From: Liolophura sinensis
Lineage: Eukaryota > Mollusca > Polyplacophora > Chitonida > Chitonidae
DNA: 64,000 bases
Direction: 5' to 3'
NCBI RefSeq assembly: GCF_032854445.1
Contig: NC_088303.1
Location: 2,179,501 to 2,243,500, forward strand
The notes under the pieces were generated by a model. That model was not told where the DNA came from. It did no database searches and saw only the letters and a program-made list of their open reading frames with translations. Within the stretch, counting starts at the first letter, position 1, and the number at the start of each line of letters is the position of its first letter. Below are positions 25,046-63,954 of the stretch, one piece after another. Both the position numbers and the translations under genes were made by a program.

Positions 25046-25496
25046 GAAAATCAGTTTTGACCATATTAGTGAACATCATAAGGTCTTTGTCTTATGAATG
25101 CGCTTATTCACCATCCCCATATTGAAAACTGTTTGAAGTTTTGGCTGAAAGTAAACAAGGAATTAGTTTCCGCTCGATCTGTTGCCTTGCTGATTAGAAA
25201 GCGTGAAGTTTGCTATGTCTTCTTACCAAAGTGTGTGCATCAAAATATTGCATCTGTAGGCCTATGTTCACGGTATAGAAATACATGAAACATTACAAAT
25301 ACTTTAATGAGCTACATATGAGACAACAAAATAACTTTCGTTCTTTGTGTTCGTCATTTGAAGGCGAAGAAACAATCACAATGATAGACTAGAAGGAAAC
25401 GCAGATACTAGTTTATTTTAGGGGAAACAAGTAAGTTGCATTGGCAGAGTTGCCTCCCTTAATACTCTTTCCTGTCTGGAGGTAAATGTGAATGTC

Positions 25497-26081
25497 ATGG
25501 CGGGTAATGGTCAGTGCCCGATTTGTGGGAAAACTTTTCCCGTGAGTCTTCTGAATTCGCATGCAAATGCGTGTTTGGGTGACAGTGACGAGACGCCGCC
25601 ATCCACTGATTCGTTGGATATAGCTGTCATGTCTGTTAGTCAGGCAGTCAGTCTGTCAAACAAGCGGAAATCTGATGACAAATTGGCGTGGGGTAAAATC
25701 TTTTCCCAAGCTAAACGAAGTAAACTGGATGCCACGATCTCTCGACCACAGACATTTTGCAGTTCTTCAGGTTGTGAGTCGACATCAGAGACAGTCATAG
25801 GAAAATCATCACCCGCAGAAAAACTTTCATATCCCATTTCACCTGAAAACATGGCGTTTGTAAAGAAAACTGATCGCAATAATGACACAGATAGTGGAAG
25901 TTCCGGAATCAGAAGCGTCAAAATGCAGTTCGCTCCCCTTCCTGAGAGAATGCGACCTGTAACACTTGAGGAATATGTGGGCCAAGAACAGGCTGTTGGA
26001 AAGCGGAGCTTACTTCGGTCTATACTTAAAACAGCATCTATACCTTCATTGATGTTCTGGGGTCCCCCTGGCTGTGGAAAG
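25497..26081 (+). CDS. WRNIP1: WRNIP1 exon 1: UBZ finger, linker, P-loop
   Basis: 195 codons. Starts [16 protein letters not shown], has the CxxC...HxxxC finger, a linker with S/K-rich segments, then [18 protein letters not shown] and [12 protein letters not shown]. The donor AAAG|GTATTT falls directly after the P-loop lysine, so the Walker A motif is divided between exons 1 and 2. Confidence 0.96.
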
Positions 26082-29000
26082 GTATTTCGTTTCTGAACTT
26101 TCTGCAGACTTCAAGTTCCCAAAATGGGCCCCAATTTTTGTGAAGTTCAAGTGGGATAGGAGTATCGGGACAAGCCAGAGAGGTCATAGTAATCAACTGT
26201 TTTCTGAAACTCAATGAAATATTCAACACGGGTGAATGGCAGCAAACCATAACTGTACGAGCGCCAGTTCAAATATACAAAAGCCATTCAGGGTTAGGTT
26301 GTAATATACACCAACAGGAGGTCTGGCAGACCTGGCTCCTCTAATATAGTTGACACTAGATTTAGTAATTGCATACTACTGCACCTAGCTGGTCAGAACT
26401 GCTTGGCATGTCAGTGCATCATTGGATGTAGTTACCGCAGACTTAAAGACTGGAAGACCCTGGCATCATACAAAGGCTAGAATAGAGAAGGATTTTAATG
26501 GCCACAACTGGAAACTATTGTGTGTAAATCCATACTATGGAATGAAAATTATTTAGTTAAGCAGAAAGAGCACATTTCAGGCTATTCAGAAATAATTAAT
26601 ATTTTGGGGTTTGGTTTATTTTCAGCCTATTTCAGGTATGTTTCTTGGACCAGACTAGAGAAGAAAGGGACTGTAAATGCTTGGACAAATTGGAAATAAA
26701 CCAGTCAAAGTGGCTCCCAAGGGGAGCACTCTCATCACATTCTTCTTTGTCCTGTCCCATAAATAGGCCAGGACATAAACTAGATCATGACATGTTGCGT
26801 GTATATCTTCCTAGTAACTTGGATTGTACTATTTCTAAATCAGTTTCATTCATGCTTCTCAATAGAACAGTTACTGCTGTGTATGAGTCCTAGAAGGATT
26901 CTGGTCTGTGACTTCGTTTTTAGGCTTGCCAGATAAACCTAATAATTAATTTAGAGGCCGAGGAAGCTTTGCATGAGTTGTTTTGATCATTAAATGTTAT
27001 ATCCAGGTTGTTGTGTACAAATGTACGCTGCAAGAGCAAACCAGAATGATTGATACATGGAAATTTTATTTTCAAAGAATCAGCATATTATGATTTTCTA
27101 CTTTATTCTTGTTGAGTTCAGAAAAGATAATGGGTTTTTATGTTTCAGACGACTCTAGCAAAGATTATTGCCAATCACTGCAAGCAGCATTCCAATACCA
27201 AATTTGTACAGCTGTCAGCAGCGTCAGTCGGCGTGGCTGATGTCAGGAACACCATCAAAACTGCTAAAACTGATCAGACAATGTTCAAGCGAAAAACAAT
27301 TTTGTTTTTGGATGAAATCCACAGGTTTAATAAATTGCAACAGGTAAGACTGGTTTTATATTTGAAATCAAATTTCTTGGATGTGCTAGATAGAGTCCTC
27401 AGAATCATAGGTTCATTTGACAGAGTGTTTGTTTTTTGAGAGAAAGCTAGTTATCATGAAGGACTATCACAAAACAAAGTAGCTTCCCCTCGTCTGTTAT
27501 AATCAAACCCAGGTTGGGTCATACCAAAGACATTAAAAAATGGAACTTGTTTGGGCCTCACTTGGTGCTCAGCACTGAAAGGATTGATCAAGGAAACAGG
27601 GCTGGTGGGCCGGTGTCAATATAATGTGACTGGGTGGGGTGTCATGTCTGGTATCTTCGGCATGATACTTTGGTGGCGACAGCACTTTGGTGGCATGGAC
27701 TTTCCCTGCCACAAGAAGACACAGTATATGTACACCTACAGACGCCTCATCGTCATATGATTGAAAAATTGTTAATCACAACGTTGAACCCCAAGCATTC
27801 ATTCATTCATTCATTTAATCTGTTATATTGGATAGTCACAGGCAATTTGCCGATATCCCGGCTGTCACTGTTTCTGTGGACTCGATGACAAACAGTTGAC
27901 ACAATCATGTGGTTGTTCGTAGCCTAGCTTGAGTACCACTTGTTTTGTACCAATATGGTGTGCATATATCTATGTAATATGTGGGAAAATTTATCAGGAA
28001 CTTGCCAAAGGATGGTGGTTTTTCCTGGTTCTTTCAGCCATAAAACTGGTTGCAATAAGCAAAAAAGTATGGCGCTAGAACAATTTCAAAATTAACTAGA
28101 ATGGATCTGCGAACAGCAGATCCTAGGCCGGGATTCCGGATCAGATCGTTGACGTTTTTACCACCCAGTAATACATGTCCCTTGTAACAGCAAGTTTATG
28201 TAAATGTGCCGAATGTGGTAAGTCTGCCTTAGGACATTCCTTCAAAACGCGTATGTCCTGTGTTTGTTGACACAGATCAAAGATTTTTATCACACATAGA
28301 GTACATGTGTAGCGCTTTGCACTCAGTGATTTTCAGCTTTACAGTTGTAACGGCTTTCTCTCACCAGACCTCCAAATATGGTGAAAAATTGCGCTTTTTC
28401 GCGTTTTGATCGCAATTTGCAGCAAAACTGTACGTCGCCATCAAGAAATAAGTCCAGATTCATGATCAGGATGTCAAACTACGTCGGGTAGCATGCTTAC
28501 AATGTTCGTGTGTTTGTCCTAGTCGCAAATGCATTTGAAATGCATCATATAACATGGGGACGTCAAAGTGCCAAATACAGCAAATCGGCCTTTGGACAAT
28601 ATTTGAAGCACTGCAACACCCACATTTATTGACACACTTCCATGATTTTCCGCACGCCTACAGTACCCATATAGCCCTTTGTACTCCGTCATTATCAGCT
28701 CCACAGCTGCAGCAGTTTTGTGTCACGTGACCTCCAAATATGGGCGAAAATTGCACCTTTTCGCACTTTCATAGCAATTGGCGACAAAACTGTGCGTCGG
28801 AGAAAGGAAAAAACCACCAGATTCGTCATCAGAACATCCAACTACGCCTAGCACCCTACTTAAAACCTTGAAATTCACAACATTTTTATCACCTGACAAA
28901 TTGGCTAGGCTGGGATCGAACTCTGACATGACTGACAGGCGTCAGCGGTAAGAGAAAAGAAAGACAGAAGAAAAATCAAAGTTTGTACTTTCATGTCTCA

Positions 29001-50021: not shown

Positions 50022-51124
50022 TAAAATGAAGGCGAGTGCTCTGGATTTCTCAACAACAGATAACAACAGACATTTGGGGCCCGGCTTACAAGGAGACACA
50101 TCATGAGCCTGGCGTGATGTGCATGGCAACATGCAGTTAAGAGAAACATCACCATGGTTAATGTTCTTGCCGTGAGAGCTTTGTCAGACAGGCCCACTAA
50201 TTATCAATACAGCTGTACATCTTACATGACCACACGGAGGATACATCTACAATGTACGCTACAGGTATCACCAACAGAAACCATGTAGGCTACAACTTTC
50301 TGTCAGTCATGACAATCAGCTTTCCCAGGAATTTCTTGGCTGAAAACATCAATCTGAAGTTCTAAACAGACCACTGTGGTGTTGCATCGATCTTCAGTCC
50401 CACACAGAACACTGCTGTGTTAAAGCGTGTCAATAATACCCTGATACGTCATTTTCATCTTCATACAAATCCAAATTCCAAATCTGTGGAGTTCATACAT
50501 GTACAATGTACATCAGGAAAAATCAGTCAAATAAACATACTTAACACATAAGTACAAATTGTTCCATGATATTCAACAAACTCATTTTCATAAAGGTTAC
50601 ACACATGTTGTACACTGTGACCTATTTTCTACAGAAGGAAAGTCTGGGAACACAGTTGTTTTACGGTTACATTTGATTTCATGATTCCCAAATTTAGTAT
50701 TAAAACTAGACCAAAGAAACTGATGCCATAGGACAGGTATATAACATAAAATGGCTTCTTATTATATAGCACTTGCATGTAGGTGCATACCTGAAAACTG
50801 AAAACAAATGCACAAGAAGTAATAGCTTCAACACATAACCTGTTCACCTGTAATTTTTGACCCAAAACAAAATCCATGATGAACTCCATGCATGTTCTGT
50901 TCATTCTTCTATAACTATTGCCACTATAATTTTACATTTAATTGTAACTAAAACTACTGCCACTATAATTTTACATTATTTGTAACTACCAATTCTCAAG
51001 CTGTTAACTTACTTTTTATACATCATTTTAATACATAAATTTACACATACAAATATGTGGATTTCAATGTGTACCCAAGTTGCTAATACTTCTAATGCTA
51101 GAAAGTTCTGGAATTCGAGATTTG

Positions 51125-51377
51125 TCATGACGTTTTGAATTTGGTATACTTTATCATCGTCTCTGGTGACCGATACAAGAAGATCAGTCTGGCAAAGAGG
51201 TCCTCTTCCAGCATGTAGTTTCTGCATTCTCGGACAAGGTACAGGTCAATGCAGATCTGGTAGACTTTGTCAACATAAGGCAGTTCCAAGAACATAATCC
51301 GGTCTGAGACGCCCCACACGAACACACGCACATACCGCCCAATGACAATGACAAAGGACAGATACAAACCTAGTATA
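51125..51377 (-). CDS. PIEZO: PIEZO terminal exon, distal copy (pore helix and C-terminal domain)
   Basis: Minus-strand acceptor with a strong pyrimidine tract, TTTTTCTTTCTTTCAG; 1 base plus 84 codons including TGA at 51127-51125. Encodes ILGLYLSFVIVIGRYVRVFV, DRIMFLELPYVDKVYQICID and LEEDLFARLIFLYRSPETMI, ending KYTKFKTS. It keeps the family's SPE motif and one acid after IMF (LE). Same entry phase as the proximal copy, so either can follow the cap exon in frame. Confidence 0.94.
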
Positions 51378-54300
51378 CTGAAAGAAAGAAAAAGCACAAA
51401 AAAAGTGAAATGATGAAGGTTTTAAGATGGGAGTGGATCAACTGCCTTTAACAGTCATCCAACGAGTAAATAAACCATAGTTTTAACTACATATGTGAAG
51501 ACGAGAGTTGATCTGACATGAAGCACAACAATTGCACAGACTATTGCAAATTTTTATATCTCTCCACTAAATACCGGGATTAAAAAATGGATCTGTCTTA
51601 GAAGACAGTTATAATATAAAAAAGATGCTACAAATCTGTGTACAATTTAGTCATGGATTGGTCAGACCAACTCTAGAACCTACATCTAACAAAAAATAAA
51701 ATAAAACACCCTTCAACCCAAGTCAGCACCGGCAGATTTCTCCTGACACAATACCACACACCACTGGTTAATATTTTTAGTCCTGAAATGGTTGAACCCG
51801 ATGGTTTCCCAGGTCGACGTCACCAAAATCGGCAGCAACGTATAAATCAATCAAGTTTTTTGGTGATGATGAGATCTCTGGGGAGCCGTGTGTATTGAAT
51901 CATCATAGCCGGCGAGCGATAGAGGAAGATGAGGCGTGCCAACAAATCTTCCTCCAAACGGAATTCCTTCATCTCTCGAACAAGGTACAGGTCCATACAC
52001 AGACGTAAAATACGGTCCACGAAAGGCAGTTGCAGGAACATGATGTTTTGATACAGGCCGGATGTGCCCATACGCAAAAAACGACCAATCAACAGAATGA
52101 AGGACACGTAGAGTCCAATAATGCTGTGAACAGAAACAGATAGTATGCGGGTAAAGACCTGTGCGCCCTTGTGGAGCTTGTTGTGTTAGCAGTGTTTTGT
52201 TGGCGACATGCTTGGTTAGGGACAGGCTACCATGCACAGATACATGTAGCATGATGCAACACTCAGCAAGCTTCAATTCCCGCTACCATTGGTTAGGCTT
52301 CTTCCCTAGTTATTCTAACATGGTAACGCGAGGTTACATACACAAAAATCTCATTTCTCCTGTGTTAAATATGGCCAAAATGAGACTTAAAATAAATTCA
52401 CTACCATCAGCAGTGCAACTTAATAAATATACTCTCACTCTTTTGAGTACAGTAGCAAGTTTTGAAACTACTAGACTACAATCATATTGCTCTGCTAGAT
52501 TTACCTAAAATTTCTTAAAATTATCAGTAGTGCCTTAATGTACACATGATCAAATCTGACTGGCTGAGCAGACAAATAGAAATACAAAAATGTAAAACCA
52601 TTTCCAATATTAGTGTATGTATTTGTTACTGCTGTATTACTGCATTAAAGGCTATACCAGCATTGGCAATTAACATAAAATGATCACTCTCAGATAAACA
52701 ATACCTTATCACGTTGAATGATGCAACGTCAGTAGAATTTAAATAAGTTGGATAATTACTCCCCCAACAAGATGGTTTAATTCTGTGTCAACTGTCCTGG
52801 TCGGAACCAACATTTGTGTCATGGCTTCTTTGATATGGACATGGACAATAGCCAGGTTGAGGAGAGAGTATTTATATTTATTTATTTCTTTATTAAGTTT
52901 AATGTGTATTAAGCAACCTAATCTTCTACATGTATGCTGCCAGAATGAGGCACAATGCCCAAGAAACAGGGAAAGTGTATCTATGAAACTGATGAAATGA
53001 GCTGCACATTTTTCATGTGGAGAAAAAAAAAGGACTAATGTTAGTAGCTCAGTGAAGTTTCTACTTATCATTAGAAATACATGCATGTAGGTCAAGATTA
53101 TTTCCAACAAGCTAGATCATCTAATGCAGCTTCTTTGCAATGGGTTAGATGATAGCAATGATTTCCCAAGTGAGGTTATGCAGTGCTTCCATTTGCTTCA
53201 AACAAAAGAAAAACCATCAGCAGTAAAAATGCCACATCTGAAAGAAAATCACAAGACACAAATGCAACAACAACATCAAAGATATGGAAGGCACTGGCAG
53301 AAAGAATATCTATCACACTATTTTAATTTGTTAATGTTGATACTGATATATACCAATATGAACATGAAAGTGAACACCAAATAAATGCTTGGTCACAAGG
53401 ATGAGCGCTTATAAGAAAATAAATCGTATCCGCCATTGATTACTGCAGCAAAAGTACAAAACTTGGTAGACCAAGTCTTCTGTTCTCATGAGAACAGAAA
53501 TCACAACAGAAATGCACTGTAAGAATGATGAAAGAAATAAGTGATTAAAAATATGAGCATACATACTGAACAAGGTACATGCACAGGTGATATGACAGAA
53601 AGCAATTAGTCTAGGATGCAGGTGAACAGTTCCTATGGCAACACATTGAATATGTTGGCATAAAATTTGTTCACCATACTTTTGTGTCTAAAACCAAGAA
53701 GTAGCTTGTTTTAATACTAAAGAAAAGAAATAATATGCATAAAACTATAACAGAGTTCCATGTTATCAGTAGAGAGACAAGCTGACATTTACAATGAAGC
53801 ATGCTACAGCATCTATATCCTTTGCACAACAGCATTACAGCCAGGCAGCTTTGCATACTGCAGGGGAAATCAGACGAGTAAGACATCAAGATTGTTTAAT
53901 AAAGTATCTTGCAAACAGAATCATCATTATACTTGTATCAAGCATGACAAAACTTATATATCAGAGGTGATTAAAGCACAAAAGAAAAAAGATTCTTTAA
54001 CTTGTTATTTTTATTTTTAATTTTACAACTGCAAATTCAGAAAATTTCTTATACCAGTATGAATGATTATTTTGACCTGAAGAAAAAAAGAGTGCACTGT
54101 AACACTCGCAACTTGTCATGAACATACCCGTAGCCAACCAAAGAAGCAAAGCCCGCTGGCGCCACGCGGTCGTTAAATGCTATCATCGTGATGTTGTTGT
54201 AGAAATCAGGGTTCTGTGGCTCATGGGGGTCAAATATGTCTGGACCACGTCTTTCCCTGACCTTCCACCATTCAGTTTCGTCTAACATCCCCTCAAACTG

Positions 54301-57300
54301 CCCACGCATCAACTGAATAGACACATCACTCAAGTCTGTGGTATCAAATGGAAAGAAACATCAAGAATTTTCATTTTACATCCTGTTACTCTAGAAGAAA
54401 AGAACACTCTCAAATGATGCTGAAATTCACAAAAAAAAAAAAACAAAAAAAAAAAACTGAATATTTAAAATAAATGCCCAGCCCTGGGGACTCAAAACTG
54501 TGAATAGATAGTTTAATGTCCCCTGAACCCACTGAACTAAAAAATGCTGAAAACATAATAAAACTAATATTATTTAATAATCTAACTACTCTCCTTAGGC
54601 AGGGGGCTGTAGTCGCAAGTCTACTCAACCTCTGCTGTAATGCCTGCACATGACATACGGTGACATAAACACAACCAGTTAAAATAATCCTTAGCGACCA
54701 ATGGAAATTACCGTATCATCTCTTCACGGGAAGTCGTAAACAATGCCTGACAGTTGACATCTCCAGACCTTTATAGCTTATGACAATGATATGACCGGTT
54801 GCACAGCTATTTAAGACCATGGTGTGCATGTCAGTGTGTTAAACATGGGAAAGTTCATCAGCAACTTGCCAAAGGTCACTGGTTCACATCACTCACTCTG
54901 GTTTCCTCCACTCATAAATTATTCTTGAGTGTGAGGTTCAACAACAACCAAATAAATGAATAAACCTGGAACACTCAGTTTAAATCAACTGCACAGGTGT
55001 ATAATACCACTTCTCCTAGTCTATTTCAGCTGCAGGTCTCGGGTAGAACACCATAACCAGTGTAATTATGAAGGGAAATAAATGATGGCTGAGTGAAACC
55101 CTCTCTGCAGTAAACACTTTTTCACTGAGGAAAGGCAAACAGACCCTTACCCCACCCTTTACCAACGGATTCTACATGTATCTTATTTTTAATACAGAGC
55201 ATGGCTCTGTGTTCAGGTGCTGAACTCTTAATTCCTGGCACACAATGTGCAGGTTCAGTGTAGGGAATTTCCAGATTCCTTTGCTCTCACTACAACACCT
55301 TTCTTAATCACCAGAGGTCCTACTTGCAGCCAGCAATATAAAGGGCTTGGACAGTAGAGAAAGTCAAGCTGGACAAGGAAATCAAAGAGCATGGGGGTAA
55401 ACTTGTAGCTGCTGGAGATGGTCGGGCAAACAGCCCAGGACATAGTGCAAAGTATGGCAGCTGTACACTGATGGATGTGAAGCTCACCAAAACTGTGGAC
55501 TAACAACTTGTAATGGTCAGAAAGTATACTTGTGCTTGAGGAGAAACGCTTCAAGCTTCTACTCACTCACTCACTCAGTGCTTCATCTAATGGGTGTTTA
55601 TCTAGTTGAGCATACTACTTCTTTGATACAAGAAAAAATTATGTCTTGTTCCCAGAAGCTTTGTGTATTACGTGTAAGTTAAGGTTAAGCATAATGGTGT
55701 AAGACAGTGCAGTAATCATTCTAATATTACAGGTATCTGAAGTGTCCAGCAGCACTGTCATGGAGAGGGAAGGGTTTGTACATTCCGTGAAAGCAACTGA
55801 TTTATTTATTTATTTCATTGGTTTTTTACGCATATTTATAGAATATTTCATTTGTCCGACGGCAGTCAGCAGTATGGTGGGAGGAAACCGGGCAGAGCCC
55901 GGACAAAACCCACGACCATCCGCAAGTTGCTGCCAGACCTTCCCACGTACGGCCGAAGAGGAAGCCAGCATGACCTCGACTTGAACTCACAGTGACCGCA
56001 TTGGAAAGCAATTGAGGAGAGAGGATTAGAACCGGAGAGTTTGGTAACTGACAGGCATGTTGCCATTAGAAAGCTCATGTGAGAAGAGAAAAGTCTTGTC
56101 AAGTATGGTTTGGATGTTTGGCATACTGTACAAGGCAAGTTTACCACACAGAATTTTTATAGTCCAATCAACATGCAAACTTCGTTTTATTTATTTATTT
56201 ATTTATTTTTAATGTATTTTGTTATTTGTATTGTTTGCACGATTTGTCAGTCTACTGTACTGGGTAGTGGGTATGTCTCCTCAGTATGACGCAGAGACAA
56301 ACCTGAAGCAATGCGACAAGCAGACAAAGAAGAAATGGGAGTCAATTGTCACAAAAATGTAGGTCGATGTACAAAAGCACAGACCTGTAAGATAAGCCAT
56401 GTTTTTATTATCACACAAACATAGATCAATGTACAAAAGCACAGACCTCTAAGATAAGCCATGTTTATTATCACATTTCATTATCACACAAATGTAGGTC
56501 AATGTACAAAGGCACAGACCTCTAAGATAAGCCATGTTTTTGTTATCACACAAACATAGGTCAATGTACAAAAGCACAGACCTCTAAGATAAGCCATGTT
56601 TTCATTATCACACAAATGTAGGTCAATGTACAAAGGCACAGACCTCTAAGATAAGCCATGTTTTTATTATCACACAAACGTAGGTCAATGTACAAAAGCA
56701 CAGCCCTCTAAGATAAGCCCTGTTTTTATTATCACACAAAAGTAGGTCTATGTACAAAAGCACAGCCCTCTAAGATAAGCCCTGTTTTCATTATCACACA
56801 AATGTAGGTCAATGTACAAAAGCACAGCCCTCTAAAATAAGCCATGTTTTTATTACACTGATACATTGTACAAACTACACCCTGACCAGAATGTCAGAAA
56901 AAATTCTGATTCGTTGTCTTAAAAAACAAAAAATAGCATTCTAACGCATATGCTTATGATTGATATCGAATAAAATTCAATTTACAGAGATTCAATCATT
57001 CTGCCCCTAAAATGGTGCATTTCTTTTATGAGGGTATGAACAACAGGTGAGGATTATAATGAAACATTGCCACACAGAATAATTAAGGTGTAATGCAAAA
57101 TTTGTTTATAGATCATATGTAGGTAGGAACTAGCTGGACATGTCATTCAAGCTATGTGATGTGTATGTGTTTGTTAGTTGCTGACTTTCCCCGAAGCCTG
57201 GAACAAGCTGGACACGTCATTCAAGTTATGTGATGTGTATGTGTTTGTTAGTTGCTGACTTTCCCCCACGAGGCCTGGAACTAGCTGGACATGTCATTCA

Positions 57301-60300
57301 AGCTATGTGATGTGTATGTGTTTGTTAGTTGCTGACTTTCCCCGAAGCCTGGAACTAGCTGGACATGTCATTCAAGCTATGTGATGTATATGTTTTTGTT
57401 AGTTGCTGATTCCCCCCACGAGGCCTGGAACTAGCTAGACATGTCATTCAAGCTATGTGATGTGTATGTGATGTGTATGTGATGTGGTGCATGTTCCCAG
57501 GTCGAGTCAATAAATGATTCGTTTGCACTAAGACCCATTTCTATCCAAATACCGGATATATTTGAGAGCATTAAACATGGTATTTACACCAAACCGTGTT
57601 CTATTCAACTGAACGATTGTTTGACATTGAATTCCCAAAGCAAACATTTAACTATTTCCAAATGTGGACATACCAACTGTCTTACATGTCCATCATTTGA
57701 TACATCCGCCACTTTTATTTCCTCACTGGCTGGTAAATGTCATTCTGTTAATTCCTACGTTAACTTAAGTTGTATTGCGTCCAATTGTATTTACTTGGTA
57801 ACATGCAAGATGTGTGGTCAGCAGTATGTTGGGAAGGCCACCCAGAAACTACATCTACGGGTGAACGGGCACCGTAAGTCCGTGCGCAAGAAACAATTGC
57901 TAATAGGCAAGCATTTCTCTGCCTGTGACCATGACTGGGACCATTTCAGCATTCAGATAATAGAATCGGTTTATCCATCCAGACAGATGTCGAATTTGAA
58001 CGTAAAATCCGTGACCGTGAGCTTTTCTGGATGCTAGAGATTGGTTCAGTCTTCCCATATGGGTTGAATGATAACGTTATGGGATTCGGCAATGTAACAT
58101 CTAGCCAACCATATGACTCCATCGTAACAAATTTATTCAAATACCATAAACGTAGACCTCGCAGTCATGGTAGGAGGAAGTTCAACAGAAACATGATTCA
58201 CAAACATGTTATAGTTAGCTATTTAGTAGGATTGTCGTATGACACCAATAGCATGCATGCTCTACGCACAGTATTATATGCACTGCCACTGAACTTGCTA
58301 AAACAGGTAGTTCAAGACGTATCCAATAACATACACAATTTTAATGTTCCACCTCACCTTGTACGTCTGTGTCAAGACATATCGTATTTTCGATTGTATC
58401 GCCCTGTAACTACAACTGAAACTCAACACGATCGACTCTTTCTGAAGATAAAGTAAAGTACGTAAAGTGGCCTTGATTTAATTAACATACCACGCATCTT
58501 TAATGAACCTGATGTTCGTAGTGATGTGCCTAATTATTTTAATATCCAAGAGCCACCTTGCATATCCTATGAGTATACAAAGCCTATCGCTTCCAAAATT
58601 TTCAATTATTTGGCGACGTATACTTCTTGCAGCTATACCTGTGATTGTGAATCCTCAGTTTTTACCTACGACAAATGTAAACATGTCCTGACTGGTGACC
58701 TTACTATTATTAAGAATCATGACCTAAGGAATCTCTTTGTGAGGGGTTCTAAGTATAGAGAAAAGAGTAATGTTGATATTCGATCAAACAAAAAAAATAT
58801 TATCTCGGCACTTGAGGAGTATGTTAAAAAATGGTCAAAACGGGAGAAAGTGGATTCTTTGGTACTTAACGATTGGCTTGAGATTGTCAAAAAGAAAGTT
58901 AGTTTAACTATAAACCGTCTAGGCATTGATGCTCTACCTAAAGTTAAACAGGTTCTGAAGGATCCCACTGTGCAAGAAACACTCGCTGACCTTCATAGTA
59001 AATTTGTCATCACTGTAGCAGACAAGGCTCCTAATAATGTCATCTTTATTTGCAAGAATTATTATTATCAAATTCTTGTTCAAGAGCTATGTGCATCTAC
59101 AACGACATCCACGTATTCTGCTACTACATGTACTCTGGAGGAACTATTTAACAAACACAAAACCTTTCTTAAAGAAAGGCGCATATACCTACCCGTCACA
59201 CAGAAATACCACAACTTTACTGGATTCCTAAAATGCATAAATCCCCATAAAAGGCTAGATTTATTGCAGGTTCAAGAAGCTGTACCACCAAACTCTTGTC
59301 AACTCTACTTACGAGAGCGTTACAAGAAGTGAAGTCATTTTGGAATAAGTATTGTTGTGCCACAACCAAAAATTCAGGTGTCTACTGCATGTGGATTCTT
59401 AACAACTCCAAACGTCTTACAGAAGAACTTGATGCTCACATGCATATAAAGACGTATCCACATGGGATTTCTCTACTCTCTATACTACGATTCCTCACAA
59501 AGATCTTTTTGAAAGAATATCGTCGTTAATTGTCTCGGTATTTACTAAAACAGGTCACCGTTACATTAACGTCAGAAGCAATAAGGCTTTCTTTAGTTCT
59601 ACTCTTTATAAAGGTTACCACTCATGGGATGTTACATTATTTATTGAATTACTTGAAATTCTCATTAATAACATCTATGTGAAATTCGGAGATACCATTT
59701 ACCAACACCGCATAGGTATTCCAATGGGTACCAATTGTGCGCCTCTTTTGGCAGACCTATACCTGTTTTCATATGAATACGACTATATGCAGAAATTACT
59801 TAAAAGTAATATCTTTAAAGCTCGATCCTTTTCATTTACCAAGCGGTATATTGATGATCTACTGGCGTTAAATAATCCCCATATTGCTGAAGCGATGAAG
59901 GAAATCTATTCGCCTTCATTGGATTTAAAGGAGACAACAGATAGTCCTGATGGTACATCTTATTTGGATCTATATCTGTACAAAGACGAACAAGGTCTCC
60001 TTTCACGCCGCCTTTACGACAAAAGGGATAATTTCAATTTTGATATTGTAAATTATCCTTATTTAGATAGCAATATACCAAAGGGTCCTGCATATGGCGT
60101 ATACATATCTCGCCTTGTAGCATTTGTCAGATCTTGCGTTAATTAAGATGACTTTAATCTGCGTCACAAGTTGCTAGTTCAAAAACTAGTTTGTCAAGGA
60201 TACTCCTTTAAACGCCTTCATTCTAAGTTTCTCAAATTTTACAATGAGTATAACACTCTCGTTGGCAGGTATGGACAGAGAGGTCAGAATCTCTGGCGAT

Positions 60301-63300
60301 CTGCATTGTGATCAACCACATAGACAGCGCTGTTATCCCTATGTACATATCTATCACGTACATGGTATTTAACAACATAGATGGAGCTGGTTGCCCAGTG
60401 TAACCGTCTATCTTGTATGTCATGTGTAATATTATAGATGGCGCCTCTTGTAGTATGAGATTTTTACATATTAACGGGAAAGACGTAATCATCCGTTACT
60501 TTTGAATCACAATCTGATCGGTCAGGGTCTGTAACGCTTGTCATTTTCAAACTGTATCTAATATCGCTTAACCTGGGGCTAGGGGCCGCAAAGGTAGCCA
60601 TGCTAATTACATCAGCATGATGTCTTTATGAACAGTTGCTATTAACGCGCCACTGAGATACCTGTTTAATTGTTATTTGACACGGAACTCATTCATGGAC
60701 TACGAATTTGAACTTTGATATGGAAGCTATGTGATGTGTATGTGTTTGTTAGTTGCTGATTCCCCCCACGAGGCCTGGAACTAGCTGGACACGTCATTCA
60801 AGCTATGTGATGTGTATGTGTTTGTTAGTTGCTGATTCCCCCCATGAGGCCTGGAACTAGCTGGACACGTCATTCAAGCTATGTGATGTGTATGTGTTTG
60901 TTAGTTGCTGATTCCCCCTATGAGGCCTGGAACTAGCTGGACATGTCATTCAAGTTATGTGATGTGTATGTGTTTGTTAGTTGCTGATTCCCCCCACGAG
61001 GCCTGGAACAAGCTGGACACGTCATTCAAGCTATGTGATGTGTATGTGTTTGTTAGCTGCTGACTTTCCCCGAAGCCTGGAACTACCTGGAAATGTCATT
61101 CAAGCTATGTGATGTGTATGTGTTTGTTAGCTGCTGACTTTCCCCCACGAGGCCTGGAACTAGCTGGACACGTCATTCAAGCTATGTGATGTGTATGTGT
61201 TTGTTAGTTGCTGACTTTCCCCCACGAGGCCTGGAACTAGCTGGACACGTCATTCAAGCTATGTGATGTGTATGTGTTTGTTAGTTGCTGACTTTCCCCC
61301 ACGAGGCCTGGAACTAGCTGGACACGTCATTCAAGCTATGTGATGTGTATGTGTTTGTTAGTTGCTGACTTTCCCCCATGAGGCCTGGAACTAGCTGGAC
61401 GTGTCATTCAAGCTATGTGATGTGTATGTGTTTGTTAGTTGCTGACTTTCCCCCACGAGGCCTGGAACTAGCTGGACACGTCATTCAAGCTATGTGATGT
61501 GTATGTGTTTGTTAGTTGCTGATTCCCCCCACGAGGCCTGGAACTAGCGGGACACGTCATTCAAGCTATGTGATGTGTATGTGTTTGTTAGTTGCTGATT
61601 CCCCCCATGAGGCCTGGAACTAGCTGGACACGTCATTCAAGCTATGTGATGTGTATGTGTTTGTTAGTTGCTGATTCCCCCTATGAGGCCTGGAACTAGC
61701 TGGACATGTCATTCAAGTTATGTGATGTGTATGTGTTTGTTAGCTGCTGACTTTCCCCCATGAGGCCTGGAACAAGCTGGACACGTCATTCAAGCTATGT
61801 GATGTGTATGTGTTTGTTAGTTGCTGACTTTCCCCCATGAGGCCTGGAACTAGCTGGACATGTCATTCAAGCTATGTGATGTGTATGTGTTTGTTAGTTG
61901 CTGACTTTCCCCCACGAGGCCTGGAACTAGCTGGACATGTCATTCAAGCTATGTGATGTGTATGTGTTTGTTAGTTGCTGACTTTCCCCCATGAGGCCTG
62001 GAACTAGCTGGACATGTCATTCAAGCTATGTGATGTGTATGTGTTTGTTAGTTGCTGACTTTCCCCGAAGCCTGGAACTAGCTCGACATGTCATTCAAGC
62101 TATGTGATGTATATGTGTTTGTTAGTTGCTGACTTTCCCCCACGAGGCCTGGAACTAGCTGGACACGTCATTCAAGCTATGTGATGTGTATGTGTTTGTT
62201 AGTTGCTGACTTTCCCCCACGAGGCCTGGAACTAGCTGGACACGTCATTCAAGCTATGTGATGTGTATGTGTTTGTTAGTTGCTGACTTTCCCCCATGAG
62301 GCCTGGAACTAGCTGGACGTGTCATTCAAGCTATGTGATGTGTATGTGTTTGTTAGTTGCTGACTTTCCCCCACGAGGCCTGGAACTAGCTGGACACGTC
62401 ATTCAAGCTATGTGATGTGTATGTGTTTGTTAGTTGCTGATTCCCCCCACGAGGCCTGGAACTAGCGGGACACGTCATTCAAGCTATGTGATGTGTATGT
62501 GTTTGTTAGTTGCTGACTTTCCCCCACAAGGCCTGGAACTAGCTGGACATGTCATTCAAGTTATGTGATGTGTATGTGTTTGTTAATTGCTGACTTTCCC
62601 CCACGAGGCCTGGAACTAGCTGGACACGTCATTCAAGTTATGTGATGTGTATGTGTTTGTTAGTTGCTGATTCCCCCCACGAGGCCTGGAACTAGCTGGA
62701 CGTGTCATTCAAGCTATGTGATGTGTATGTGTTTGTTAGCTGCTGACTTTCCCCCATGAGGCCTGGAACTAGCTAGACGTCATTCAAATTATGTGATGTG
62801 TATGTGTTTGTTAGTTGCTGACTTTCCCCGAAGCCTGGAACTAGCTAGACATGTCATTCAAGCTATGTGATGTGTATGTGTTTGTTAGTTGCCGACTTTC
62901 TCCCACGAGGCCTGGAACTAGCTAGACATGTCATTCAAGCTATGTGATGTGTATGTGTTTGTTAGTTGCTGACTTTCCCCCACGGCAGACAAGATAGGCA
63001 GACAGTACAACTTTAATGTTCTTTTTAAAGTAGAGCTGGTCATCATTTTACATTTTCAAATGCAGTTTACAGACTAACATAACTTGAAGATTGTGTGTAG
63101 CGCATACTTACTGTGAAGATAAAAGCGTTGGGGTTATCCTTTAAGGTTTCTGTTGATTGCTTTCATGTTTTGTACTAAACACTTCAGTGCCTGGCCATAG
63201 CTTTCATCAGCCTACTGCCATACTGTTGGCTACAGGAGGATGGTGTGTGTAGGTTTGTGAACAACCCAATCATGGGCCTTGACAGATTTCCTGGAATTCT

Positions 63301-63954
63301 GCCTTCTCCCCGGCTACAAACCATAGATCTAATTTCATGTTCACAATATGTCTATTGTGCTGTTTTTCCAGCTTTGGATCCTTGCAGTACATAACAAAAA
63401 GTTAAGACTTTTTGCCATAGGTACTTGTTACCATAGGTACTTGTTGCAATGTACTTTAACTTCTTAACCGATCGGACAATTTCTTTTAAAGACTAAAGCC
63501 ACACAAAATGTCTGATCCCTGAAACACAACCTCTGAATAAACTAAAGACATACATGTATCGTGTTTTTTCTTTTTCACAAAGCCATGATACCGTTTTCCA
63601 AGAGTCAACTTTGTCTAGTCAACTAGTCTATCATTTTGGCAAATGATGAGATTGACATAACTTCTAAGTTACACTAGGTCGGTTTATAAATTTTATCTTT
63701 ACTTAGATACTGTTGTACATGTATGGTAAACAACACTTGGTAAACATGTAAAACAGTTTGAATTGATTTTGTTAAAACTCTCACTCTAAACCTTTAGATT
63801 TACAATCTGTACAATTTTAATTCAAACAAACTACCTCAAGAAGCTCAAAATTGTAACAAAGTGAATGCCGTTACCTTCCCGCAGAATGCCCAAGGGCTTG
63901 GCTTGACCTTTTGAGCCCAGTCGCAAATAACGCGGGAACAAGTCTTTAATTACG
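51125..63954 (-). CDS. PIEZO: PIEZO mechanosensitive cation channel, 3' end with two alternative last exons
   Basis: Minus-strand exons: 63954-63875 and 54335-54128 (extracellular cap), then two alternative terminal exons, 52123-51847 and 51377-51125. The cap exon ends with GG in phase 2 after ...LVGY, and each terminal exon starts with one base that completes the glycine and then I-I-G-L-Y or I-L-G-L-Y. Family knowledge: PIEZO channels are trimers in the plasma membrane. After the cap come the pore-lining inner helix and the intracellular C-terminal domain, which end in a conserved LIFLYRSPETMIK segment. Both terminal exons reproduce this plan. The remainder of the protein (more than 2,000 residues in known PIEZOs) lies to the right of the window. 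The 9.5-kb intron 54336-63874 holds a retroelement and minisatellites. Identification is firm; whether it corresponds to vertebrate PIEZO1 or PIEZO2 cannot be decided from this part. Confidence 0.95.
51378..51846. other. Spacer between the two PIEZO terminal exons
   Basis: 469 bases of unique sequence. On the minus strand I see no clear AATAAA, so a transcript ending in the proximal exon may read on through the distal exon and use the downstream polyadenylation site. It contains the branch and pyrimidine tract for the distal acceptor. Confidence 0.5.
51847..52123 (-). CDS. PIEZO: PIEZO terminal exon, proximal copy (pore helix and C-terminal domain)
   Basis: Minus-strand acceptor CTGTTCACAG; 1 base plus 92 codons including TGA at 51849-51847. 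Encodes IIGLYVSFILLIGRFLRMGT (inner helix), NIMFLQLPFVDRILRLCMDL and LEEDLLARLIFLYRSPAMMI, ending with a longer basic tail QYTRLPRDLIITKKLD. Compared with vertebrate PIEZO1, the acidic pair after IMF is LQ instead of EE, and SPE is SPA. About 45 of 78 aligned residues equal the distal copy. Confidence 0.94.
52124..54127. other. PIEZO intron before the terminal exons, nothing recognised
   Basis: 2.0 kb of unique AT-rich sequence. Several short frames on both strands show nothing I recognise. No minisatellite. Confidence 0.55.
54128..54335 (-). CDS. PIEZO: PIEZO cap exon (penultimate)
   Basis: Minus-strand acceptor TTGATACCACAG, donor TACGG|GTATGT. Encodes LSDVSIQLMRGQFEGMLDET, EWWKVRERRG and NITMIAFNDRVAPAGFASLV GY. 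The EWW and the (F/V)(S/N)D(K/R)V-P segments, then GF...GYG, are characteristic of the end of the PIEZO cap. It must splice to one of the two terminal exons. Confidence 0.95.
54820..54965 (+). mobile_element. Diverged SINE
   Basis: GGGAAAGTTCATCAGCAACT, TGCCAAAGGTCACTGGTTCA, CTGGTTTCCTCCACTCATAA, TTATTCTTGAGTGTGAGGTT and CAACCAAATAAATGAATAAA follow the order of the second SINE type in the window (compare 27945-28075). Confidence 0.65.
55306..55566 (+). pseudogene. Decayed transposase-like fragment (GDGR..SPGHSAKY motif)
   Basis: In one plus frame: HQRSYLQPAI, stop, RAWTVEKVKLDKEIKEHGGK, LVAAGDGRANSPGHSAKYGS, CTLMDVKLTKTVD, stop at 55501, QLVMVRKYT. I associate the segment GDGR(A/C)xSPGHSAKYGSYT-L-M with a family of uncharacterised transposase-like proteins common in invertebrate and fish genomes. 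The in-frame stops and lack of surrounding frame indicate a dead fragment. Inside a PIEZO intron, opposite strand. Confidence 0.5.
55797..56012 (-). mobile_element. SINE, inverted, nearly complete
   Basis: Starts TTTATTTATTTATTTCATTG, then TATTTATAGAATATTTCATT, CAGTATGGTGGGAGGAAACC, CCACGACCATCCGCAAGTTG, CTTCCCACGTACGGCCGAAG, GAAGCCAGCATGACCTCGAC and a B-box complement (GACTTGAACTC). The head is partly lost. Confidence 0.85.
56345..56860 (+). repeat. Minisatellite, 62-bp unit, about 8 copies
   Basis: Unit parts: CACAGACCTCTAAGATAAGC, CATGTTTTTATTATCACACA, AACATAGGTCAATGTACAAA, AG. In the PIEZO 9.5-kb intron. One copy has a 12-base insertion near 56467. Confidence 0.95.
57113..57490 (+). repeat. 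Minisatellite, 77-bp unit, left part, about 5 copies
   Basis: Same unit as 60722-62986: AGCTATGTGATGTGTATGTG, TTTGTTAGTTGCTGACTTTC, GAGGCCTGGAACTAGCTGGA, CATGTCATTCA. It ends in a short expansion of GTGATGTGTAT at 57463-57485, where the retroelement begins. Confidence 0.95.
57530..57990 (+). pseudogene. Naiad GIY-YIG endonuclease region
   Basis: KCGHTNCLTCPSF cysteine cluster, then CIYLVTCKMCGQQYVGKATQ (the GIY and YIG strands), LHLRVNGHRKSV (catalytic arginine and the first histidine) and KHFSACDH. Target-cleaving nuclease of Penelope-like elements. Followed by a frameshift into RKIRDRELFWMLEIGSVFPY GLND. Confidence 0.85.
58031..59332 (+). pseudogene. Naiad linker with CxC motif and RT N-terminal part
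   Basis: Two open stretches in one frame (58031-58456 and 58526-59332) separated by two TAA stops about 70 bases upstream of 58526. Includes YTCDCESSVFTYDKCKHVLT, which contains the CxC motif, and HSKFVITVADKAPNNVIFIC, typical of the region preceding the RT fingers in Penelope-like elements. Confidence 0.8.
59296..60311 (+). pseudogene. Naiad reverse transcriptase core
   Basis: Frame 59296-59529 (KSFWNKYCC, MWILNNSKRL) shifts near 59454 to the frame that runs to 60311 with one TAA at 60144. Motifs: FSTLYTTIP, YQHRIGIPMGTNCAPLLADL, RYIDDLLALNN, DSPDGTSYLDLYLYKDE, SRRLYDKRDNFNFDIVNYP. Catalytic aspartates are present. Related to telomerase-type RTs by family knowledge. Confidence 0.87.
60722..62986 (+). 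repeat. Minisatellite, 77-bp unit, right part, about 30 copies
   Basis: Continuation of the 57113-57490 array beyond the retroelement. Variants include CCCCCACGAGG, CCCCCATGAGG, CCCCGAAG (shorter unit, about 72 bases), and CACGTC, CATGTC, CGTGTC. Blocks of several units are repeated (for example the CTATGAGGCC variant and its neighbours around 60900 and 61680), which indicates multi-unit duplications. Confidence 0.97.
62987..63874. other. PIEZO intron, nothing recognised
   Basis: About 890 bases of unique AT-rich sequence between the 77-bp array and the upstream cap exon. No repeat or gene recognised. Confidence 0.55.
63875..63954 (-). CDS. PIEZO: PIEZO cap exon (upstream)
   Basis: Minus-strand acceptor TTCATTCTTGCAG and donor GGAAG|GTAACG. 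80 bases encode VIKDLFPRYLRLGSKGQAKP then LGILRE, resembling the PKYIRAPNGPEA segment of vertebrate PIEZO caps. Phase 1 exit joins the next exon's first two bases to give aspartate (RED-LSDVSIQL). Confidence 0.88.

Follow-up and report, generated by a model that had tools for sequence, protein, structure and literature searches.

To our knowledge, the nearest functional parallel to the gene described here is NALCN. NALCN exons 15/31 are described as alternative selectivity-filter exons of one invertebrate channel gene, conserved over phyla and with both forms expressed in a snail (PMC3557258). Within the PIEZO family, splicing of mammalian Piezo2 tunes inactivation (Szczot 2017, as cited in PMC10531961); as described there, it removes a peripheral intracellular region, whereas in the PIEZO gene of the chiton Liolophura sinensis splicing would swap the pore itself. 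The pore module of PIEZO1 and PIEZO2 (PF12166 Piezo_cap; PIEZO1 2466-2544) aligns gap-free with two exons of the chiton, so that the module is encoded twice within one gene. Like NALCN, this is one invertebrate channel gene with alternative exons for the pore. NALCN however exchanges selectivity-filter residues in a four-domain channel, while the exchange in PIEZO would concern the terminal exon of a trimeric mechanosensitive channel and, unlike the NALCN exons as presented in PMC3557258, would bring in the whole inner helix, the cytosolic domain and the stop codon. No report of a duplicated PIEZO pore exon was found in the open-access literature, subscription journals being outside that coverage. 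The Liolophura genome was published under the name L. japonica, which the authors later corrected to L. sinensis (PMC12441733).

We analysed a stretch of 64,000 nucleotides of this genome, here called the window, and used its coordinates throughout. Reading of the sequence places PIEZO on the minus strand, with two candidate last exons 3' of the cap exon (54335-54128):

63875 to 63954, minus strand: PIEZO exon n-2, cap region ...VIKDLFPRYLRLGSKGQAKPLGILRE; phase 2 in, phase 1 out; splice sites read directly
54128 to 54335, minus strand: PIEZO exon n-1, end of cap ...FNDRVAPAGFASLVGYG; ends GG/gtatgt, phase 2
51847 to 52123, minus strand: terminal exon A; codes for the inner helix and the C-terminal domain (91 aa), ending in TGA
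51378 to 51846, minus strand: 3' UTR of A, or A-B interval; 469 nt; hexamer scan
51125 to 51377, minus strand: terminal exon B; codes for the inner helix and the C-terminal domain (83 aa), ending in TGA
51027 to 51032, minus strand: ATTAAA, candidate poly(A) signal 3' of exon B; hexamer scan, consensus match only
50942 to 50937, minus strand: second ATTAAA 3' of exon B; hexamer scan, consensus match only

An earlier note on this DNA had described two minus-strand terminal exons, at 52123-51847 and 51377-51125, and both are there, each with its stop. Exon A has 277 nt, an acceptor reading ...ctgttcacag/C, 91 residues and TGA at 51849-51847; exon B has 253 nt, an acceptor reading ...ctttctttcag/T, 83 residues and TGA at 51127-51125. 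They lie 0.5 kb apart and are contained within 1 kb. The 3' end of the cap exon at 54128 reads ...GGC TAC GG/gtatgt, and the first base of either A or B completes a GGN (Gly) codon; both exons are thus phase 2 onto the exon ending at 54128, which bears out the equal acceptor phase that had been claimed. A and B exclude each other because A carries its own stop codon, and for this reason 'alternative last exons' describes them more exactly than the earlier 'mutually exclusive' exons. The final GT inside exon A is found at 51943, so that no donor could excise the stop alone. Pyrimidines make up 18/20 positions of the acceptor tract of exon B versus 14/20 for exon A. Neither AATAAA nor ATTAAA occurs in the 469 nt from the stop of A to B, where the hexamer scan returned the weak variants TATAAA (51558) and ACTAAA (51781 and 51651); as a canonical poly(A) signal is absent ahead of B, an A transcript may use a variant signal or extend through B.

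Upstream of the pair, exon n-2 resembles by eye the 'LFPRFIRLGGQGKANPI' stretch of Solemya P0003 and falls within the 99% of the query that the P0208 match covers. Exon n-1 aligns with positions 156-211 of Pfam Piezo_cap (E 0.00056, which alone is under the family cut-off) and is matched by Haliotis P0010 in tblastn (E 2.6e-8). Exons A and B both pass the Piezo_cap cut-off and belong to the PIEZO family by sequence, with positions 219-297 of 298 matched by A (E 2.3e-32) and by B (E 2.4e-34). Each matches 15 distinct solved PIEZO sequences, and both align gap-free with the inner helix and C-terminal domain of solved PIEZO1/2. The two chiton copies share 46/80 residues in an ungapped alignment, close to the 45 of 78 or so counted before, and their mutual tblastn match (E 3e-29) puts this likeness above chance. 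Over the 80 codons, 28, 17 and 51 changes fall at codon positions 1, 2 and 3, as would be expected if two coding copies had diverged while the protein was constrained. Saturation of the synonymous sites between A and B (dN 0.37, no dS) leaves dN/dS without a value. The locus thus holds homologous tandem exons of equal phase, each with its own stop.

Genome-wide searches covered 632 sequences (609,464,459 bases). Exon A as a query returned two matches genome-wide, namely A and B; Piezo_cap returned three, which are A, B and one cap exon of the same gene; Piezo_TM25-28 returned two, both upstream within the same PIEZO gene. Five molluscan PIEZOs used as tblastn queries gave 27-34 pieces each. 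The pieces of P0005 and P0010 are ordered, with gaps, over approximately 51-121 kb in window-based coordinates, and small overlaps aside the last piece alone is doubled; a weak N-terminal piece lies near 146 kb (E 8e-5). A multi-exon gene coding for the remainder of PIEZO is therefore found upstream of A and B by tblastn and Piezo_TM25-28, with a predicted length of at least 70 kb and perhaps 95 kb. In 183.5 kb of sequence nothing under E 0.5 other than A and B was obtained in the search for a weaker third copy of the terminal exon. These searches support the presence in Liolophura of one PIEZO gene with two terminal pore exons, and on their basis we reject a second PIEZO paralogue or an assembly artefact as candidate explanations. 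The heterozygosity of the sequenced species, given as 1.24% (PMC11068029), is what might lend credit to a second copy produced by the assembly, through haplotypes or paralogous genes collapsed or joined. We regard this as extremely improbable, since 34/80 residues differ between A and B, no second PIEZO gene appeared in the whole-genome searches, the 0.5 kb between the exons is under the average length of the HiFi reads from which the assembly was built (8.3 kb; PMC11068029), and tandem copies occur in the gene models of three other molluscs. The earlier note had named an assembly artefact as a way in which its reading could fail; with both exons within 1 kb, no N in the same 183.5 kb and the same pair in other molluscs, that outcome is unlikely.

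Besides the PIEZO exons, the window contains a Penelope-like retroelement remnant at 57483-60146 on the plus strand, inside a PIEZO intron. Here an RT-like frame (RVT_1 E 0.0039) is preceded by a GIY-YIG-like domain (Pfam E 0.00096), both matches being below the cut-off, and the N-terminal place of GIY-YIG recalls the Naiad type of Penelope-like elements. The remnant is bordered on either side by related tandem repeats, of 77 bp (29.6 copies, 60724-62984) and of 74 bp (4.6 copies, 57126-57470). The same intron holds, at 56345-56855, about 8 tandem copies of a 62-bp unit. An open frame at 25422-26096 on the plus strand encodes a zinc finger at the N-terminus as well as the beginning of an AAA ATPase; by eye we take it to be WRNIP1-like.

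We next considered PIEZO proteins of other animals, in a database clustered at 90% identity. The search with the exon A protein returned 936 proteins, of which the best 120 were used. The four top matches are molluscan models with an A-type and then a B-type copy in series: Mya arenaria P0001/P0002, Solemya velum P0003 and Octopus vulgaris P0004, all predicted proteins; in the last of these A is reduced to 49 residues. A precedes B in each of four genes (chiton, Mya, Solemya and O. vulgaris). The comparison with other molluscs that the earlier note had called for thus finds the pair shared by two bivalves and an octopus, which speaks against a copy lost or broken in relatives and against collapsed paralogues. 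Within the best 120 of 936, A-type ends are present in oysters, mussels, scallop, clams, abalone and limpet, as well as in caenogastropods, pulmonates, sea slugs and octopus. Outside the window, B-type ends amount to four distinct sequences, from Mya, Solemya, O. vulgaris and the cephalopod-like P0041, which is 66% identical to Octopus bimaculoides P0018. No B-type copy was seen in gastropods among the matches listed; clustering at 90% merges isoforms differing in the last 80 of 2,400 residues, so this absence means little. In the B-type search, which was crowded by Drosophila isoforms, P0041 is the one non-insect sequence in the best 120 of 633. A search for short fragments spanning the junction gave 9 matches, none recognisable as molluscan.

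More than one copy of the terminal module is found in 8/216 proteins, and a one-copy model may still have a second exon in its genome. The models from Rotaria, Adineta and Gonioctena resemble the chiton in having a second copy of the same module. In bdelloid rotifers, P0024 and P0031 (Rotaria) and P0036 (Adineta) have two tandem terminal modules, the first of which is without the RSPET motif; Gonioctena quinquepunctata P0021 has a very diverged second module after a normal one (end branch 2.62). These rotifer and beetle tandem copies are possibly separate duplications or model errors. The P0211/P0212 terminal-exon fragment is mixed, with QTTGM as in A copies and VIVIG as in B, and P0211 was placed with rotifers in the tree.

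Read literally, P0001-P0004, predicted with both copies serially, would make one protein with the A and then the B module. This is a very improbable account: ends with A alone and with B alone exist, the joins differ among the three species as gene-model error would give, P0004 has 49 residues of A only, and in the chiton removal of the stop via the GT at 51943 would also cost about 30 residues of the domain. Single ends are found in transcript-like sequences carrying the 'lgn' label, which we take to mark assemblies of public reads. A-type ends are carried by P0008, which is 98% identical to Crassostrea gigas P0006 and has 902 aa on a contig of 5,030 nt, by P0015 (2,356 aa, contig of 7,306 nt) and by P0017 (974 aa, contig of 4,996 nt); P0041, with 2,389 aa on an 8,635-nt contig, has the B end straight after the cap ...ITGYG. 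Long unbroken frames on contigs far below the size of a PIEZO gene are suggestive of cDNA, and indicate that both end types are transcribed in molluscs generally. The O. vulgaris models carry A in P0016 and a fused A and B in P0004, and are 95% identical over 1,305 aligned positions. Two PIEZO family genes have been described in this species (PMC12919962), and the two "genes" of that description could be the two isoforms. Leeches are described as having two piezo genes (PMC7992859).

We built a tree from 57 copies of the module, taken from 50/216 proteins, over 80 columns, which are few for this number of rows. P0002, whose copies are both identical to those of P0001 across 80 residues, is omitted from the 27 A rows, as are P0008, P0014, P0040, P0047 and the A portion of P0004 (49 residues); with omitted rows restored the A count is 33. 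All 27 molluscan A rows, the chiton included, form one clade (support 98/94), and the five B rows, again with the chiton, form a separate clade (95/90). On these 80 columns only, copies thus group by type and not by species, in agreement with the old divergence that the earlier note had proposed. Long branches were flagged in the tree, those of the chiton B and the second Mya copy among them. In AU tests, on pairs picked after the tree was seen, forcing A and B of one species together cost 32.2 log units in Mya (p 0.0002), 36.2 in Solemya (p 0.0005) and 16.4 in the chiton, where the rejection is weak (p 0.036); forcing the four cephalopod A and B rows together cost 32.2 (p 0.006). A joint clade of molluscan A and B is absent from the free tree but was not rejected when constrained (p 0.24). 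The tree gives no support for placing the rotifer copies together with molluscan A or B, although four AU tests forcing this did not firmly reject it (p 0.041, 0.085, 0.059 and 0.059).

Pairwise identities between classes are 64-70% for A-A and 61-70% for B-B, with 49-61% for A-B within genes. Compared to Mya, Solemya and Octopus, the chiton copies are 64-70% (A) and 61-65% (B) identical to their own type; its within-gene identity of 58% is little below its B-B range. Chiton A and B are equally near to mouse PIEZO1 (6bpz; 46/80 each), while in Mya, Solemya and Octopus B shares 51, 51 and 56 of 80 residues with it, versus 42, 43 and 51 for A. Considering the separate A and B clades and the AU rejections, the terminal-exon duplication most likely took place before chitons, bivalves and cephalopods separated. 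Over such a time a copy no longer spliced in the chiton, readable by chance or through occasional use, would decay. The lack of a canonical poly(A) signal ahead of B and the weaker polypyrimidine tract of A are what such a relic might display, yet in both copies the frame is open and the splice sites and stops are intact, both keep the identity to their own type, and the changes between them are concentrated at third codon positions. Conservation and open frames count against this view, and we consider a relic distinctly unlikely; both A and B are presumably spliced in the chiton.

In order to compare the two predicted pores we used mouse PIEZO1 numbering (column 1 is 2466, from 5z10), which agrees with 2473-IVLVV-2477 as given in PMC6349400. 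In the mouse channel, L2475/V2476 is described as the main inactivation gate and M2493/F2494 as a secondary one, mutations at the MF site having a moderate effect only on inactivation, while P2536/E2537 influences deactivation and current size (PMC6349400). Calcium selectivity, conductance and block have been tied to E2495/E2496 (PMC7796548), and so has sensitivity to ruthenium red (PMC8042031). All five B rows keep V2476, F2484, M2493/F2494, E2496 and P2536/E2537. In the A rows, F2484 is replaced by S, G or A in 27/27 and F2485 by T in 25/27, M2493 is retained in 12/27 and P2536 in 15/27. Both sites are largely altered in bivalve A rows (M2493 in 13/13, P2536 in 12/13), among which P0015 was counted for its likeness to Mytilus. 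At 2495 an acid occurs in 0/27 A rows, 18 of which have R or K, and in 2/5 B rows; at 2496 it occurs in 25/27 and 5/5, and at 2537 in 26/27 and 5/5. The chiton A has L2495, Q2496 and A2537, so that the three acids are absent, where the chiton B has L, E and E. Of the residues that the earlier note had listed as invariant in the family, IMF is not so in A-type copies, given the M2493 count. At 2476, L occurs in 26/27 A rows (30/33 with omitted rows, the Elysia rows P0040 and P0047 having I and V). V2476L was considered as a hallmark of A and dropped, as the remaining proteins, too, most often have L there (144/180, mostly flies).

The A-B differences at gating and permeation residues predict different channel behaviour, and by inference from these residues the A and B pores would inactivate differently and be unlike in how divalent ions permeate or block them. 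Alternative last exons swap the 3' UTR too, and both ends could be made with equivalent pores, the choice serving mRNA stability or localisation through 3' UTR regulation. This is an unlikely reading, since at six positions (2481, 2484, 2485, 2489, 2516 and 2544), several of them near known gates, no residue is common to the 27 A and five B rows.

Altogether, we consider it very probable that alternative choice of the last exon lets one gene produce two PIEZO pores. In the proposed mechanism, the last exon of a single PIEZO gene, coding for the whole inner pore helix and the C-terminal domain, would have been tandemly duplicated before the sampled molluscan classes diverged, and both copies would have been kept as alternative last exons. 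Splicing of the cap exon to A would yield an A-pore channel terminated at the stop of A, while skipping of A and splicing to B would yield a B-pore channel. The choice may well be regulated, which the weaker tract of A and the stronger tract of B would fit. As PIEZO is a trimer, mixed trimers could add intermediate pores, although this is speculative. The joint reading, to which we give about an even chance, is that one gene has provided two mechanosensitive pores since before the class split, B with near-canonical gates and A with altered inactivation, deactivation and calcium permeation or block, that mixed trimers grade between them, and that the exon may have been re-duplicated in rotifers.

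As molluscan gene models can fuse A and B, which was seen in four, expression studies may miscount isoforms. Gating of the PIEZO pore has so far been studied via point mutation in mouse channels, and the conserved exon pair would be a ready-made pore swap with the backbone unchanged, in which the swapped part spans the LV inactivation gate, the MF and PE constrictions and E2495/E2496. The pair offers a test of whether kinetics and permeation are determined by the pore module by itself, and of how varied mechanosensory currents could arise in an animal that has a single PIEZO gene. If the reading is true, molluscs would with one gene match the solution that vertebrates have in PIEZO1 and PIEZO2.
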